Positions 5,112 to 49,648 of a stretch of 64,000 nucleotides of DNA are shown here, one piece after another (the first letter of the stretch is position 1; every line of letters begins with the position of its first letter). Source of the stretch: Candidatus Nitrosopumilus sp. SW (GTDB lineage Archaea > Thermoproteota > Nitrososphaeria > Nitrososphaerales > Nitrosopumilaceae); assembly GCF_006740685.1 (NCBI RefSeq), contig NZ_CP035425.1:1217687-1281686 (forward strand), read 5' to 3'. Under the pieces are notes generated by a model, which saw nothing but the letters and a program-made list of their open reading frames with translations, was not told the origin of the DNA and did not search any database. The translations under genes and the position numbers were made by a program.

Positions 5112-5243
5112 TTATTTTAGATCTTTTCTATTGTAAAATTTCTTTTTTGTAACTGATGCAATAAATTCACACTGATATGAACAATACAATGAATTGTTTT
5201 CCTTGGTTATTCTCCCACAACATGGGCATGCACTGCTTTCCAT
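5112..5243 (-). CDS. Small zinc-finger-type protein (CX2CX11CX3C), second of a tandem pair
   Basis: A 43-residue reading frame with Cys6-X2-Cys9-X11-Cys21-X3-Cys25 (ACPCCG, then YCSYQC) and a Lys-rich tail. This spacing is typical of small treble-clef or zinc-ribbon modules. It lies in the same frame as the ORF at 5247-5381, separated only by a TAA stop and one AAA codon. The two carry identical Cys spacing, so they are either a two-gene pair or one two-finger protein split by a nonsense change. No function is known; nucleic-acid or protein binding is a guess. Confidence 0.55.
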   Translation of the reverse strand: MESSACPCCGRITKENNSLYCSYQCEFIASVTKKKFYNRKDLK

Positions 5244-5246
5244 TTT

Positions 5247-5381
5247 TTACACCATGCTTTTATTTGCACATTCTGATGAGCAATACTCACTTGCACGGTT
5301 TGAGAATTTTTTTTCACACAACTTGCAGACTTTTTCAATACTTTCTTCTTCTGAAAATAATTTTTTACGTATTGTTTTCAT
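5247..5381 (-). CDS. Small zinc-finger-type protein (CX2CX11CX3C), first of a tandem pair
   Basis: A 44-residue frame with a charged N-terminus (MKTIRKKLFSEEES) and Cys19-X2-Cys22-X11-Cys34-X3-Cys38 (VCKLCEKKF, then YCSSEC). The CxxC-aromatic-YCSxxC layout resembles many small zinc-binding domains. A decayed relative of this gene, with about 100 bp of similar upstream DNA, lies at 6111-6197. The repeated spacing in the next ORF and the decayed relative support this being real coding sequence. The role is unknown. Confidence 0.58.
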   Translation of the reverse strand: MKTIRKKLFSEEESIEKVCKLCEKKFSNRASEYCSSECANKSMV

Positions 5382-5503
5382 CGAATTTGTTAATTATTAT
5401 TTTTATTTTAGGAATGATTTACTTGATTTGTGTCAGTCTAAAGTAAACTAGTTGATTTCGTCTTGTAAATAGATAACTCGTTATTTTTTCAAATATTGGA
5501 AAT
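5313..5503. repeat. Imperfect direct repeat, copy 1 (gene 5' part plus upstream region)
   Basis: This segment resembles 6136-6322 in the same orientation. Shared blocks include ACTTGCA/CCTTGCA in the finger coding part, ACGTAT before the start codon, TTATTTTTATTTT, TTGATTTC, TAGATAACT and CAAATATTGGAAAT. It covers the N-terminal coding part of the small zinc-finger gene at 5247-5381 and its promoter side. The copies are about 820 bp apart and flank the micro-ORF pair at 5834-6090. Confidence 0.6.
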
Positions 5504-5625: not shown

Positions 5626-5709
5626 TTAATTTTTTGGTTTTATAGAATCTGGATGTTCTATAGCGTAATGAAACATGCACAACATACCATTAGAGCACTG
5701 ACATTTCAT
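5626..5709 (-). CDS. Cys-rich micro-ORF (27 residues)
   Basis: A 27-residue frame beginning MKCQCSNGMLCMFH, with three Cys and two His in a compact pattern. A TATA-like TCTTAAATA lies about 22-30 nt upstream of the ATG on this strand (5731-5739), the right distance for a leaderless archaeal transcript. There is no recognised family. It is short enough to be chance, but the promoter spacing and Cys content match its neighbours. Confidence 0.42.
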   Translation of the reverse strand: MKCQCSNGMLCMFHYAIEHPDSIKPKN

Positions 5710-5730
5710 ACACGTGCAATATAATAACGA

Positions 5731-5739
5731 TATTTAAGA
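5731..5739 (-). promoter_or_regulatory. TATA-like box for the micro-ORF at 5626-5709
   Basis: On the minus strand this reads TCTTAAATA and lies 22-30 nt before the ATG at 5709, as expected for a leaderless transcript. Assigned from spacing and composition only. Confidence 0.4.
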
Positions 5740-5833
5740 TATTTACTAGTTGACTTTATTTTGTATAAAATCAACTTTTTAATTATTTATTTTGAGAAAT
5801 CCTGCAAGACATCTAATTAACAACGAGTTTGAA

Positions 5834-5929
5834 ATGGATGACACACCAAGTAAACGATGTGATGATTGTAAGAGGATGAGATGCTCTGAAGGATGTATGT
5901 GTGACTGCCATCCAAAACAGGCATGGTAG
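5834..5929 (+). CDS. CX2CX4CX3CXCXCH micro-protein, copy A
   Basis: A 31-residue ORF whose core reads CDDCKRMRCSEGCMCDCH, followed by PKQAW. Three other ORFs in the window share the same six Cys and one His spacing plus the invariant residues D-C, R, G-C and C-D-C-H (7918-8028, 8295-8390, 49538-49648). Conservation across separate loci is strong evidence for real coding. An in-frame TTG at 5792 could add 14 residues. The last codons overlap the ATG of the next ORF (ATGGTAG). The spacing implies metal binding (Zn or Fe-S); no function is known. Confidence 0.72.
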   Translation: MDDTPSKRCDDCKRMRCSEGCMCDCHPKQAW

Positions 5930-6090
5930 GAATAACATTGAACAGTGACTCTAGATCTGAAAATACAGTAGATGAGAAAAATATTGAAGAAGAATTTGAA
6001 CATCTGTTCCCAGAATACGACTATTCTGTAAAATCCTCTTTTCATGAAAAAGACTTGCGAAAGAAAAAGCGTATGAAAACAGTGTACTAG
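5923..6090 (+). CDS. FxHLFPxYD small basic protein, copy 1
   Basis: A 55-residue ORF overlapping the stop of the Cys-rich peptide gene by 7 nt. The middle reads EEFEHLFPEYDYS and the tail is strongly basic (DLRKKKRMKT). A second ORF ending at 8706 shares the F-x-HLFP-x-YD core and the KKR basic tail, and it too lies downstream of a copy of the Cys-rich peptide. The repeated gene order argues for a functional pair. There is no recognised family; the basic tail would suit nucleic-acid contact, which is inference. Confidence 0.62.
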   Translation: MVGITLNSDSRSENTVDEKNIEEEFEHLFPEYDYSVKSSFHEKDLRKKKRMKTVY

Positions 6091-6110
6091 TATATTTTAA
6101 AGAACAGTAT

Positions 6111-6197
6111 ACGTTTGGATGTTTGTGGAATTTTTTATTACAAACCTTGCAAATTCTTTCAAAATGTTTCTCTGTAAATAACCCACGTATCTTTCAT
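6111..6197 (-). pseudogene. Decayed copy of the small zinc-finger gene
   Basis: On the minus strand, one frame gives IRGLFTEKHFERICKVCNKK followed by a YCS block, which lines up with the intact gene at 5247-5381 (IRKKLFSEEESIEKVCKLCEKK, then YCS). The ATG at 6197 is out of frame with this homology, and the last Cys pair is replaced before the frame runs antisense into the FxHLFP gene. It therefore looks like a frameshifted and truncated duplicate. The upstream DNA is also similar (copy 2 of the direct repeat). Confidence 0.5.
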
Positions 6198-6322
6198 GGA
6201 CTTTAACACAATATTATTTTTATTTTGGGAATGAAATTTCTTGATTTGATTCTAGTGGGAAGTTAACCTGTTGATTTCATTCAGATGGTAGATAACTATT
6301 CTATGTCTCAAATATTGGAAAT
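6136..6322. repeat. Imperfect direct repeat, copy 2
   Basis: This is the counterpart of 5313-5503, covering the 5' part of the decayed zinc-finger copy and its upstream region up to CAAATATTGGAAAT. The rest of 6091-6491 is AT-rich, and I see no convincing gene in it besides this copy. Confidence 0.55.
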
Positions 6323-6491
6323 CATGTACATGGTTTTGGAGGTCCAAACATTGGTAAAAAGAAAACGAAAATCCAGTACTGATGAGGAATAACCATAATA
6401 CAGAAACATGTCTCTCTTTTTTGGTCAATGCTTTTCTCTTGAGACGTGTTTCTTTTCTCATTCCTTCTTACCTTTATAGTGAAAATGAGAC

Positions 6492-7034
6492 ATGAAAAAA
6501 ATTCTAACTCTAGTGTTGATTGTACTACTTTTTTCAAATTATCCTATTCAGGAATCATTTGCCAAAATTTCAATAAAAAAAGTCGATGAAAAACGATGCA
6601 TTCACATGTATTCAAAATTTCTGAAAATGGGAGAAGAGAGATTTCTAAAGCGATACCCTGCATACCCAATCATGGATAAATGCATGATGTTGTTCAAAGA
6701 TTCTGTCTTTATTTCAAAATATTCTCCAATCTACACCTTGAAGACAGCCAGTCCGAACAATTTTTCATATGAAACAAAAATCATTACATCAAAAGTAATT
6801 GGTTCAAACAAGATCTTGACAAACTTTAGTATTTGCTATGAGGAAAACAAGAGAACTAATTATGTTCTAATTAATTCTGATTCAGAAAAGATTTTTGGCA
6901 AAGCTCAAAGATTACCTGATAAAGAATGTCCTTCATTTTGGATAGTAATCAAGGCAACCACCATTCAAAATACTCAATTTTCATGGGATTATGAACATAA
7001 ACCAAATCCACAAATTGAACGAAAGATGTTTTGA
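6492..7034 (+). CDS. Secreted hypothetical protein
   Basis: A 180-residue protein with a clear signal peptide (MKKILTLVLIVLLF, probable cleavage after SFA, about residue 24). The mature part has four Cys (about residues 36, 58, 114 and 145), which may form disulfides outside the cell. I recognise no domain. It stands alone between the micro-ORF clusters. Confidence 0.65.
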   Translation: MKKILTLVLIVLLFSNYPIQESFAKISIKKVDEKRCIHMYSKFLKMGEERFLKRYPAYPIMDKCMMLFKDSVFISKYSPIYTLKTASPNNFSYETKIITSKVIGSNKILTNFSICYEENKRTNYVLINSDSEKIFGKAQRLPDKECPSFWIVIKATTIQNTQFSWDYEHKPNPQIERKMF

Positions 7035-7058
7035 ATGATTTCTCAAAATATATGATCT

Positions 7059-7132
7059 TTAAGTGAATTCAAATGAAGGCAGACTTGTCATGGAACGGGA
7101 GAAGACAACTGTCTTATCACGAATTCACTTAA
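7059..7132. repeat. 12-bp perfect inverted repeat enclosing a GC-richer loop
   Basis: TTAAGTGAATTC at 7059-7070 is mirrored by GAATTCACTTAA at 7121-7132 around a 50-nt loop. The loop is visibly richer in G and C than the flanks and contains a further partial complement (ACTTGTC against GACAACTGTC). It could be a structured RNA, a regulatory site or a terminator for the gene ending at 7034. It also holds a 19-residue frame (7073-7132) that I do not call as a gene. Confidence 0.5.
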
Positions 7133-7263
7133 TGTGTATACGACATTCAAACTTTTAAGATACTGAGTGGTTGATTAAATTCTGAACTTGCTCAACTAAC
7201 ACTTGGTTCAATAACATAATCCATAATTCTTGCTCTGGTGAAAAATCAAATGATCCCAAACAG

Positions 7264-7467
7264 CTGTATTTTATAGCCCTTGTAGTATTGATTCTTGCAT
7301 ATCACATGCATACTTCTCATGCAATCCATGATGATTTGTTGCATCATAAGAGTCAGATTCTAAAGGTTGTTGATGTATCCTGTGAAAGTGGTGCTTGTGA
7401 TGAAAAAAATGACCACAAACATGACCATAAAAAGAAGCGTAAGGTTATGTCAATTCACAGATACTAG
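7264..7467 (+). CDS. Possible small secreted His/Lys-rich metal-binding peptide (start uncertain)
   Basis: The frame encodes a hydrophobic stretch (YFIALVVLILAYHMHTSHA) resembling a signal peptide, then a mature part with a CESGAC motif followed by EKNDHKHDHKKKRK, a His/Asp/Lys cluster that suits metal binding. The frame has no ATG before the hydrophobic part. Possible starts are CTG 7264, TTG 7288 or ATG 7306, and the last would lose the signal. A GTG at 7238 lies in another frame and soon stops. It may be a gene with a rare start, or a frameshifted one. Confidence 0.38.
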   Translation: MYFIALVVLILAYHMHTSHAIHDDLLHHKSQILKVVDVSCESGACDEKNDHKHDHKKKRKVMSIHRY

Positions 7468-7498
7468 TTTTTTTCCAACTATTTGTTTTTACAATATT

Positions 7499-7672
7499 CT
7501 ATTTTATACAATACTTACAAGAAACAAATTTTTGAGATAATGCATTTTCTAGCGAATCTGGAGTAAAATACACTCTGTCATCTTTTTCTATAGAATGTAA
7601 TTGACATTCTGGTTTTACTGTGCCTAAATGATGTACTATTCCATCTGATTTTTTTGCAAAATAGCCTGGCAT
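7499..7672 (-). CDS. Small metal-binding-type protein resembling the Ada N-terminal zinc fold
   Basis: A 57-residue ORF with an early Cys (KPECQLHS), a central RVYFTPDSLENAL block and a C-terminal SCKYCIK. The order Cys, His, vYF-acidic, then CxxC resembles the small metal-binding module of Ada-type proteins, but I cannot confirm homology. Its ATG follows directly on the TAA of the upstream ORF in the same frame, so the two are probably translated from one message. Confidence 0.52.
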   Translation of the reverse strand: MPGYFAKKSDGIVHHLGTVKPECQLHSIEKDDRVYFTPDSLENALSQKFVSCKYCIK

Positions 7673-7801
7673 TTATTTATCTGATCCTTGTTCATCAAAA
7701 ATTTTATGACACATCATACATTCTCGTTTGTTTTTCAACCCTGGCATCTTTAGTGATATGGAATGAGTACATTTTTCGGGATTAATTACTCTATATGCCA
7801 A
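7673..7801 (-). CDS. Small Cys/His protein with CMMCH motif
   Basis: A 42-residue ORF, assuming a TTG start, with Cys11-Thr-His13 near the N-terminus and ECMMCHK at residues 27-33. A CxH plus CxxCH pattern suggests a small metal site. CxxCH is also the c-type haem motif, but there is no export signal, so haem is unlikely. It lies 4 nt after the preceding C2H2-like ORF and is followed without a gap by the ORF at 7672. The start is uncertain because the frame is open upstream. Confidence 0.45.
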   Translation of the reverse strand: MAYRVINPEKCTHSISLKMPGLKNKRECMMCHKIFDEQGSDK

Positions 7802-7805
7802 ACTC

Positions 7806-7916
7806 TTATTCCGATGGTTTTTGTGATTTATGAGTTCTTTCGTGCTCTAATACTTTAGAAAATGTGTCTGGGTTCCCTTCCCACTTGAATTTGCATTCAC
7901 GACAACTATAATTCAT
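7806..7916 (-). CDS. Single C2H2-type zinc-finger micro-protein
   Basis: A 36-residue ORF made almost entirely of one finger: Cys5-X2-Cys8 (SCRECKFKW), a 16-residue linker, then His25-X3-His29 (LEHERTHK). This is the classical Cys2His2 layout and resembles the finger at the end of the membrane protein at 10975-11343. The start lies 1 nt past the stop of the upstream Cys-rich peptide. DNA or RNA binding is plausible from the fold only. Confidence 0.6.
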   Translation of the reverse strand: MNYSCRECKFKWEGNPDTFSKVLEHERTHKSQKPSE

Positions 7917-7917
7917 T

Positions 7918-8028
7918 TCATCCCCAATACCTTGAATGACAGTCACAAACACATCCATCTAAACAATGCATTCTAGTACAGTCTTCACATTTTCTTTGAA
8001 CTGTATACCTTCTCTTTTCTTGCGTCAT
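7918..8028 (-). CDS. CX2CX4CX3CXCXCH micro-protein, copy D
   Basis: A 36-residue ORF with core CEDCTRMHCLDGCVCDCH and a short aromatic end (SRYWG), preceded by a basic N-terminus (TQEKRRYTVQRK). The core aligns without gaps with the copies at 5834, 8295 and 49538. It is the first gene of a run of four tiny Cys/His ORFs on this strand, each starting within a few nt of the previous stop. Confidence 0.7.
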   Translation of the reverse strand: MTQEKRRYTVQRKCEDCTRMHCLDGCVCDCHSRYWG

Positions 8029-8134
8029 TTTATTTTATGTTGTAAATTCTGAAAATAAACAAAAAGATAATTGAGTTGGTTCAGAATGAAGTCAACTGGT
8101 TACTCTGATATTGATTTTTTACAATTTTCAGGCA

Positions 8135-8143
8135 GTTAAATAG
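8135..8143 (+). promoter_or_regulatory. TATA-like box for the micro-ORF operon starting at 8166
   Basis: GTTAAATAG lies 23-31 nt before the ATG at 8166, the spacing expected for a leaderless archaeal transcript. Assigned from position and composition. Confidence 0.45.
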
Positions 8144-8165
8144 AAACTTTTGAGTTTCTTCTTTC

Positions 8166-8291
8166 ATGCAACAAAACATGTTACATACTGAAACCCGACC
8201 ATTACTCCCGGTTGGAAGTGATGCCAAAAACGCTCTTCCAACTGCTATGGATATTGCAGGACTATCATGGATTTTAAAGGATGATGACTAG
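8166..8291 (+). CDS. Hypothetical 41-residue protein, first gene of micro-ORF operon
   Basis: This ORF encodes a 41-residue peptide beginning MQQNMLHTETRPLLPVG and ending WILKDDD. No cysteines and no recognised domain. It is called because its start sits at the right distance from a TATA-like box and its stop is 3 nt before the next ORF, making it the head of a chain of tightly spaced small genes that runs to 9393. Confidence 0.42.
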   Translation: MQQNMLHTETRPLLPVGSDAKNALPTAMDIAGLSWILKDDD

Positions 8292-8294
8292 TTT

Positions 8295-8390
8295 ATGCAA
8301 TATTTACTAAACAAAAGATGCCAAGATTGTATGAGAATCAAATGTACTAAGGGATGTATTTGTGATTGTCATCCTAGGCAATGGTGGTAA
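8295..8390 (+). CDS. CX2CX4CX3CXCXCH micro-protein, copy B
   Basis: A 31-residue ORF with core CQDCMRIKCTKGCICDCH followed by PRQWW, the same length and layout as the copy at 5834 (KRC start of the core, HP after it, aromatic end). All six Cys and the His are kept while the intervening residues vary, as expected for selection on the protein. It lies second in the 8166-9393 gene chain. Confidence 0.73.
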   Translation: MQYLLNKRCQDCMRIKCTKGCICDCHPRQWW

Positions 8391-8393
8391 AAA

Positions 8394-8567
8394 ATGAAAG
8401 TCGAAATTGTTCAATCTGATAGTATTTCAGAACTTGATAAATTAATCAATGCCTGTATTCAAAATCGTAAAGTCAATGACATCAAATTATCTACTGTTAC
8501 AAAAGATGAGAGTATTCTGTACACTTCATTAATCATGTTAGATGAGGAGGTGAAATCTGATATCTAG
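8394..8567 (+). CDS. Small protein, possibly Cse60-like
   Basis: A 57-residue ORF starting 3 nt after the Cys-rich peptide. The sequence (MKVEIVQSDSISELDKLINA, later ESILYTSLIMLDE) predicts a compact alpha/beta fold and resembles, from memory, small Cse60-type proteins of unknown role; I hold that weakly. It sits between the Cys-rich peptide and the FxHLFPxYD peptide, where module 1 has no equivalent gene. Its end overlaps the next frame by about 11 nt. Confidence 0.48.
   Translation: MKVEIVQSDSISELDKLINACIQNRKVNDIKLSTVTKDESILYTSLIMLDEEVKSDI
8546..8553 (+). promoter_or_regulatory. Strong Shine-Dalgarno sequence (GGAGGTGA) inside a gene
   Basis: GGAGGTGA is the exact complement expected for the archaeal 16S 3' end. 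It lies just before the FxHLFPxYD frame, but no ATG, GTG or TTG follows at usable distance in that frame; CTG at 8557 or ATA at 8560 are the only nearby options. It marks where initiation probably happens. Confidence 0.5.
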
Positions 8568-8706
8568 TACAAATTATTTTTCTGAGCAAAATATAACGGA
8601 AAAGTTTGATCATCTTTTCCCACAATATGATAATTTCAACACAAAGGTATTTCAGAAAAAAGACCATAAAAACAAGAAACGATTAAGGACTTCAGGTGAA
8701 ATTTAG
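8557..8706 (+). CDS. FxHLFPxYD small basic protein, copy 2 (non-standard start)
   Basis: The frame gives about 49 residues with EKFDHLFPQYDNF in the middle and a basic tail (KKDHKNKKRLRT). It matches the ORF at 5923-6090 in the core and tail, and both follow a Cys-rich micro-protein. There is no ordinary start codon, but GGAGGTGA lies directly upstream, so CTG at 8557 (or ATA at 8560) may be used. The stop is 2 nt before the Lrp-like gene. Confidence 0.55.
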   Translation: MISSTNYFSEQNITEKFDHLFPQYDNFNTKVFQKKDHKNKKRLRTSGEI

Positions 8707-8708
8707 GT

Positions 8709-8960
8709 ATGCAAGCATATGTCCTTCTCTCCTGTACTGGTGGAAGTGAAATTAATCTTATTTCTGAACTTAAAGAAATTCCTGAAATAGTTGAGATAAA
8801 CGGAGTGTGGGGAAAATACGATATTTTTCTCAAACTATCTACCTCTGATACAGGTAAGATAGACAAAATTGTTCAAAAAATAAGGAGTTATCCTGACGTA
8901 ACCGATACCTATACCATGCATGTATTGTATGGTCAAGGAGGTAGCATTGATGATGACTAA
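8709..8960 (+). CDS. Stand-alone Lrp/AsnC ligand-binding (RAM) domain protein
   Basis: An 83-residue protein corresponding to the C-terminal effector-binding half of Lrp/AsnC regulators, with the typical WGKYDIFLKLS strand and TDTYTMHVLYG end. The DNA-binding helix-turn-helix is absent. Such single-domain proteins bind amino acids or pair with full-length regulators. It sits in the middle of a gene chain with the micro-ORFs upstream, so it may sense a ligand for that operon; this is inference. Confidence 0.78.
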   Translation: MQAYVLLSCTGGSEINLISELKEIPEIVEINGVWGKYDIFLKLSTSDTGKIDKIVQKIRSYPDVTDTYTMHVLYGQGGSIDDD

Positions 8961-9000: not shown

Positions 9001-9393
9001 ATGGGACTTTTGTCAGTTGAGGAAATACGAAATCTCGATAAAGCTTGTCAGGAACTCTTACAAGAAAATAAGATAAGGCACGTGGGAGTGATAAATGAGC
9101 TTGGAAGGCTTGTCGCAGGCGGATTCAAAAAAGGAGTAAATCCGTTATTGTCTGATGATAAAGTAAGAATGGTGTATATGCAAATGCAGCTTGATTTTAA
9201 CATGAGACAAGAACTTGATGATTCACTAGGCCCTATTGATTATATTGCATCAAGGAGAACAAAACAACTTATCATGAGCGTTCCTATTGGAGAGAATTTA
9301 GTATTGATTACTGCAGAACCTGATGCAGACGACAAAGAAATTATCAAAAAAGCAGAAGAATTGTTTGATGGTATCTCAATCTCTACTGTGTAA
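9001..9393 (+). CDS. Hypothetical protein, DUF6659-like (thaumarchaeal)
   Basis: A 130-residue soluble protein with HVGVINELGRLVAGGF near residue 30 and LGPIDYIASRRTK near residue 80. This matches, from memory, a family common in ammonia-oxidising archaea (DUF6659) with a roadblock/profilin-like look. A 15-residue frame (8953-9000) links it to the Lrp-like gene by stop-start contacts, so it probably belongs to the same operon. The function is unknown. Confidence 0.65.
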   Translation: MGLLSVEEIRNLDKACQELLQENKIRHVGVINELGRLVAGGFKKGVNPLLSDDKVRMVYMQMQLDFNMRQELDDSLGPIDYIASRRTKQLIMSVPIGENLVLITAEPDADDKEIIKKAEELFDGISISTV

Positions 9394-49537: not shown

Positions 49538-49648
49538 ATGAACACGGCACCTTATTGGAACAAAAACATCTGTTCTGATTGTAAAAGAATCAAATGTCAA
49601 AAAGGATGTATTTGTGATTGCCATCAATTGCGAGACAGAATAAACTAA
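49538..49648 (+). CDS. CX2CX4CX3CXCXCH micro-protein, copy C
   Basis: A 36-residue ORF with core CSDCKRIKCQKGCICDCH, matching the three copies at 5834, 8295 and 7918-8028, more than 40 kb away. The ends differ (N-terminal NTAPYWNKN, C-terminal QLRDRIN). It starts 1 nt after the stop of the membrane protein gene. It has no FxHLFPxYD partner here, so the Cys-rich peptide can occur alone. Confidence 0.72.
   Translation: MNTAPYWNKNICSDCKRIKCQKGCICDCHQLRDRIN

Follow-up and report, generated by a model that had tools for sequence, protein, structure and literature searches.

What unites two short gene pairs, each a gene for a cysteine-rich microprotein followed by a gene for a basic peptide with an HLFPxYD core, in the genome of Candidatus Nitrosopumilus sp. 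SW? Both lie in a window of 64,000 nucleotides, the whole stretch analyzed here (contig NZ_CP035425.1, positions 1,217,687 to 1,281,686), taken from a complete genome of 1,499,620 bases. Ammonia-oxidizing archaea are among the most abundant marine cells; their small proteins are mostly unannotated, and their gene regulation is little mapped. An initial annotation of the window suggested that the pairs form a functional unit, for instance regulatory or metal-handling, whose two genes had duplicated together. Our own answer, to which we assign a probability of roughly 55%, is that the pairs, here called modules 1 and 2, are operons of one regulon, in which a single regulator controls Cys-rich, probably zinc-binding microproteins with a basic peptide as their partner. 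The reading frames first assigned to the two modules are all open. The genes concerned are:

5834 to 5929, plus strand: Cys1, a 31-residue CxDC..CDCH microprotein of module 1, with a 7-nt overlap with LFP1
5923 to 6090, plus strand: LFP1, a 55-residue basic HLFPEYD peptide of module 1, in the LYP family (below)
8166 to 8291, plus strand: a GLSWIF-family peptide of 41 residues, gene 1 of the module 2 operon
8295 to 8390, plus strand: Cys2, a 31-residue CxDC..CDCH microprotein of module 2
8394 to 8567, plus strand: p57, a 57-residue reading frame directly 3' of Cys2
8557 to 8706, plus strand: LFP2, a 49-residue HLFPQYD peptide of module 2, with a probable CTG start

As a query against the whole source genome, LFP1 finds only itself and LFP2 (E 8.8e-8), and a single-sequence search with LFP1 in the contigs of related genomes gave no match; a family profile was needed. 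Both peptides are divergent members of a family of about 47 residues from Nitrosopumilaceae, designated LYP, with the consensus xxEQRFExLYPxYDYSLxSSxxEKDxRKRKRMKTMY. LFP1 scores E 1.4e-23 and LFP2 E 1.0e-18 against the LYP profile, which itself includes both, and each has the F..[LIM][YF]PxYD core and basic C-terminal tail of the family. The HLFPEYD and HLFPQYD cores with basic tails, picked out in the initial annotation, are confirmed by this profile and by the match of the two peptides to each other. LYP has 36 copies; 31 of 95 Nitrosopumilus genomes carry one, and the sole match outside that genus, among 398 sampled genomes of the phylum, is in G265. Substitutions in LYP cluster at the third codon position, with pN/pS near 0.36, so the gene is translated; across the homologues there is third-position bias, with pN/pS between 0.15 and 0.36. 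With moderate confidence (pLDDT 70, pTM 0.25), structure prediction places helices at residues 6-20 and 28-46 that meet near the conserved YPxYDYS stretch. Neither the LYP profile nor that of the Cys peptides had a convincing match in PDB; a likeness of the basic tail of LYP to a PCNA inhibitor of Thermococcales was sub-threshold (E 0.099) and is treated as chance.

The gene directly 5' of each LYP copy (gap <60 nt) was tabulated for all 36 copies. This slot holds a Cys-rich microprotein in 29 of them, drawn from three unrelated families: a treble-clef-like finger, HCxYCGxKL..YCSxxCKxKDSVWH (16 copies, with none in the window's genome), the MKCQC peptide treated below (11 copies), and the CxDC..CDCH peptide (2 copies, in module 1 and in genome G071). 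Module 2 has its CxDC..CDCH peptide 5' of LFP2 with p57 between, and six LYP copies lack a recognized 5' partner. The conserved element is a Cys-rich microprotein of one sort or another followed by a LYP peptide, rather than CxDC..CDCH specifically. The order first described, Cys peptide and then FxHLFPxYD peptide, holds in that general form, while the particular Cys peptide named is a minority partner. LYP is a conserved peptide that keeps its operon position while unrelated Cys-rich neighbors replace one another beside it. Partner type divides the LYP tree: MKCQC-linked copies form one clade (95/92), and Cys-linked copies lie to one side of a branch (97/96). Where LFP2 belongs is uncertain because the aligned rows are short and the LFP2 branch is very long.

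The CxDC..CDCH peptide has a third copy near the two modules:

7918 to 8028, minus strand: Cys3, a third CxDC..CDCH microprotein, without an LFP partner

Cys1, Cys2 and Cys3, 31-36 residues long, have in common the motif CxDCxR..C..GCxCDCH, with six Cys and one His within about 18 residues. This motif, the match of LFP1 to LFP2 and the codon-position bias of the homologues speak against a chance resemblance of the modules. Their family gave about 100 matches in 60 of the 95 genus genomes, in the usual form MNTAPYWNKKVCSDCKRMKCQKGCLCDCHxLRDR. A canonical MNTAPYW-type copy, the most conserved form in the family (pN/pS 0.15), occurs in the window near 49544-49633, and the forms with a W tail (5834, 7918 and 8295) make up a side branch. 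At the loci inspected the usual form comes after genes for a CBS-domain protein and a small membrane protein, so the peptide is not tied to LFP. One might go further and hold the adjacency of Cys and LFP genes to be incidental, leaving the operator and the MKCQC-LYP co-occurrence (both below) as real and CxDC..CDCH with no role alongside LFP, given that the peptide stands with LFP in only three copies from two genomes and is common elsewhere without LYP. Yet module 1 and the G071 pair have the same order and the same stop/start overlap, ATGGTAR (in module 1, ATGGTAG, 7 nt), and in most genomes the slot holds some Cys-rich microprotein, so we regard incidental adjacency as unlikely. The initial annotation would have taken the pairing for local chance had it appeared in no other genome; it does recur, in G071. 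A separate candidate, a viral relative of the CxDC..CDCH peptide (CPKCAGKCGKGCECDCHK, within a 598-residue reading frame of a 4.3-kb IMG/VR contig, L145, 2400-2450), was set aside as a chance and probably convergent likeness.

By co-occurrence, the stronger partner of LYP is MKCQC, which in the window lies next to module 1:

5626 to 5709, minus strand: MKCQC, a 27-residue CxC..C..H microprotein, divergent from module 1, aligned with 18 others

Its consensus is MKCQCxxxxLCxFHYIxxNPxSIKPKN. It occurs in 27 of the 95 genomes, every one of them belonging to the 31 with LYP (naive Fisher p 8e-20, kinship ignored). In about ten genomes the two genes are distant from each other or sit on separate contigs, so their co-occurrence is more than linkage. 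MKCQC, found only where LYP is present (27/27), was overlooked in the initial annotation, as was the palindrome described below; CxDC..CDCH is mostly found without LFP. A miniature toxin-antitoxin-like unit, with LYP neutralizing MKCQC or the Cys peptide, would suit linked and overlapping small genes (the 7-nt overlap is present in module 1 and in G071) and a patchy distribution. It would also suit the finding that MKCQC never occurs without LYP while LYP sometimes occurs without MKCQC, as expected if LYP protects. This reading is disfavored, and in our judgment very improbable, because of the unlinked MKCQC copies and because no known toxin or antitoxin family is matched in Pfam, NCBIfam or PADLOC. 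Strong sequence conservation also speaks against it, as do the lack of any significant PHROG match for the Cys, LFP and MKCQC peptides and an IMG/VR search for a viral origin, which found LYP and MKCQC encoded by no viral contig. As a separate observation, a conserved acidic reading frame of 26-29 residues (MSYSQKVQEDYDGF..SEYDFED) occurs at loci L067, L069 and L092, and ends 2 nt before MKCQC in the MKCQC-LYP operon of L067.

Comparison of the divergent promoters revealed a 29-bp palindrome, AGTTGAYTT-N11-AARTCAACT, three copies of which serve the operons at 5.1-8.7 kb of the window (no strand is assigned):

5421 to 5449: O1, 2 mismatches, 39 nt before the NRASEYC finger gene (minus strand)
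5748 to 5776: O2, 0 mismatches, between MKCQC and Cys1-LFP1, 38 nt before the MKCQC ATG
8069 to 8097: O3, 2 mismatches, 40 nt before Cys3 (minus strand) and 68 nt before the GLSWIF gene (plus strand)
5112 to 5381, minus strand: the NRASEYC and CPCCGR mini finger genes downstream of O1, with homologous pairs in G002 and G059

O1 faces the NRASEYC and CPCCGR fingers, O2 faces both MKCQC and Cys1-LFP1, and O3 faces the Cys3 cassette in one direction and the GLSWIF-Cys2-p57-LFP2 operon in the other. Across about 716 kb of sequence from loci retrieved through protein matches, the spacer of 11 gave 24 distinct copies at no more than one mismatch, and each other spacer from 5 to 18 gave 0-1. The position is constant too. 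Every MKCQC gene with an operator has it at exactly 38 nt (10/10, copies unlinked to LYP included), and for 13 of 14 treble-clef partners it precedes the HCxYC motif by 93-94 nt (in two of these the site has 3 mismatches). When the upstream sequence is shuffled, a site with no more than 2 mismatches turns up in at most about 0.2% of cases. Sites number 77 in the 31 LYP genomes versus 10 in the 64 others (p 2e-11); a reversed control pattern gave 29 versus 43 (p 0.07, not significant). At 2 mismatches in the window's own genome (G000), the operator count was no higher than that of the reversed control, and weak sites are untrustworthy on score alone; the operator claim for this reason rests on spacing, position and one-mismatch counts. 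A TTTAAATA-like box has a fixed place between the palindrome and the MKCQC ATG, about 21-28 nt before the ATG; so short a distance from promoter box to ATG is expected for leaderless archaeal transcripts.

Elsewhere the operator precedes genes for the MRCPNCGNQASWRD microprotein, mostly at 66-67 nt, and for GLSWIF peptides, mostly at 67-68 nt (as in G071, G036 and G016). Further targets are MPDESCR double fingers, K-rich peptides, hexapeptide-repeat proteins and a 435-residue protein with an N-terminal hydrophobic stretch. A regulon defined by this operator is well supported, and the palindrome is a concrete, testable fixed operator with named targets in several species. We put at even odds the broader proposal that the regulon consists mostly of lineage-specific microproteins, with one regulator and one operator serving at least seven small families, and LYP keeping exchangeable Cys-rich partners in one slot that three unrelated zinc-type microproteins have come to occupy. 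The regulon may extend beyond LYP. Two further operator occurrences were noted: a copy 67 nt before a MRCPNCGNQASWRD microprotein gene in G079 (L151), a genome without LYP, and four good copies in G447, from another genus of the family.

The main rival to the regulon reading explains the same genes as a metal store. On that account a metal-responsive regulator controls the Cys peptides as metallothionein-like zinc or copper buffers, with LYP in an accessory role, for instance as a stabilizer or targeting factor. Six Cys and one His within some 18 residues would serve such a role, many different Cys-rich proteins stand behind one operator, and the same gene cluster encodes a His-rich peptide whose G016 homologue is near an operator copy. 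The operator targets that are not Cys-rich (the GLSWIF peptide, the hexapeptide-repeat protein and the K-rich peptide) argue otherwise, as do the ligands of the treble-clef partner, which suffice for about one zinc and suggest a structural site. We judge a metal store rather unlikely.

The sequences themselves show the gene families, their order, overlaps and co-occurrence, and an operator of constant position and spacing. The mechanism that we infer under the regulon reading goes on to metal binding, direct contact and nucleic-acid binding, and to the regulator itself with its sign and its signal. In it, a putative dimeric DNA-binding regulator would bind the palindrome just upstream of the TATA box and control genes in both directions from O2 and from O3. 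Either activation or repression is allowed, because the operator abuts the TATA/BRE region; we lean toward activation. Each Cys peptide would fold, most likely around zinc, given its ligand pattern, and overlapping or closely spaced genes would let the Cys peptide and LYP/LFP be made in a set ratio. LYP/LFP would be a basic two-helix partner of the Cys peptide, its F..L(Y/F)PxYD core probably contacting a protein and its tail, rich in K and R, a nucleic acid or some other acidic surface. The functional unit first suggested, regulatory or metal-handling, agrees with the conservation of gene order, with translational coupling and the ligand patterns of the Cys peptides, and with an operator in common, although the stronger co-occurring partner is MKCQC. 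Several points weigh against this account. In 58 of the 60 genomes with CxDC..CDCH, no copy adjoins a LYP gene. Seven LYP genomes have no operator at one mismatch or fewer, and no operator precedes MKCQC in MKCQC-LYP operons. The p-values are inflated because the genomes are related. The AlphaFold models are weak, with pLDDT 57 and pTM 0.20 for the Cys peptide beside the values given above for LYP.

Cys1, Cys2, LFP1, LFP2 and MKCQC match nothing in the libraries against which each was scanned, namely Pfam (for the Cys and LFP peptides), NCBIfam and PADLOC, and nothing on the palindrome or these peptides was found in the open-licence literature, which is weak evidence of absence; the microprotein set is apparently undescribed. 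Small zinc finger proteins in archaea are already known, and the new part is the operator-defined regulon. Two reports on Haloferax volcanii describe one-domain zinc finger micro-proteins of fewer than 70 residues with few Cys ligands and many paralogues, most of which bind zinc, and several of which matter for stress adaptation, biofilm formation and swarming (PMC6562870, PMC11241148). Compared with that description, the window peptides are likewise archaeal, short (31-36 residues), sparing in Cys ligands and present as paralogues. Unlike that type, Cys1-3 lack paired C(P)XCG motifs, having no CxCG pair, and the window peptides are restricted to Nitrosopumilaceae as far as searched, paired with basic LYP, and placed behind a common palindromic operator. 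The treble-clef-like LYP partner (HCxYCG..YCSxxCKxKDSVWH) weakly matches Pfam DUF2116 (PF09889, a probable treble clef) in 13 of 13 sequences tested, with a best E of 7.8e-6; the member listed in full reaches 16.1, short of the 26.8 cut-off, and this partner is absent from the window's genome.

The genes around the modules bear on how the two pairs arose:

7806 to 7958, minus strand: a C2H2-type mini finger 3' of Cys3; the G071 homologue follows Cys-LFP and is 71% identical
7673 to 7801, minus strand: a CMMCH mini protein, with a homologue in the G071 cassette, 64% identical
7499 to 7672, minus strand: an HHL..CKYC mini protein, with a homologue in the G071 cassette, 46% identical
8709 to 8960, plus strand: a stand-alone Lrp/AsnC ligand-binding domain of 83 residues (PF01037, E 8.9e-11)
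9001 to 9393, plus strand: a DUF6659 protein (PF20364, E 5.9e-15)

G071 has a single cassette, with MKCQC divergent from Cys-LFP-C2H2-CMMCH-HHL. In the window its parts are split between MKCQC plus Cys1-LFP1 (5626-6090) and Cys3-C2H2-CMMCH-HHL, encoded on the opposite strand (8028-7499). Upstream of Cys1 and Cys3, 54 nt match at 74% in inverted orientation; an inverted duplication, after which the two copies lost different parts, fits this pattern. Module 2 does not simply copy module 1 and appears to have another source. At 1.33 Mb, G071 has a Cys-p57 pair in the same order as module 2, without an LFP gene and with p57 66% identical, and the simplest account would make module 2 a Cys-p57 line that kept or gained LFP2. 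Joint duplication of both genes, as first proposed, is not borne out by this match, and duplication of the Cys-LFP pair as a unit is only a possibility.

Module 2 runs Cys2, p57, LFP2, the 83-residue Lrp/AsnC domain and the DUF6659 protein, with the 57-residue frame and the Lrp-type domain both where the initial annotation had them. The p57 sequence weakly matches phrog_26938 (E 1.9e-6). The LFP2 frame has no ATG, GTG or TTG start, and CTG 8557 is its probable start, since no other start is in frame and this codon is well spaced from a complete 9-nt Shine-Dalgarno sequence, AGGAGGTGA, at 8545-8553, the sole copy in the window (0.25 expected). In the 83-residue protein the RAM ligand-binding domain scores above the PF01037 cut-off and alone covers the 83 residues, leaving no N-terminal helix-turn-helix. 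The protein resembles archaeal Lrp/AsnC regulators and stand-alone RAM domains; unlike the regulators it has no DNA-binding domain, and nothing ties it to the palindrome. Homologues of this domain recur near LYP loci.

Two minor features complete the cluster. Just 3' of LFP1, on the opposite strand at 6100-6330, lies a degenerate second copy (repeats D2 and D4) of the NRASEYC finger gene's end together with its promoter region. The His-rich peptide at 7240-7467 has an N-terminal hydrophobic stretch and an HDHKKKRK tail, and its G016 homologue (L066) is 62% identical.

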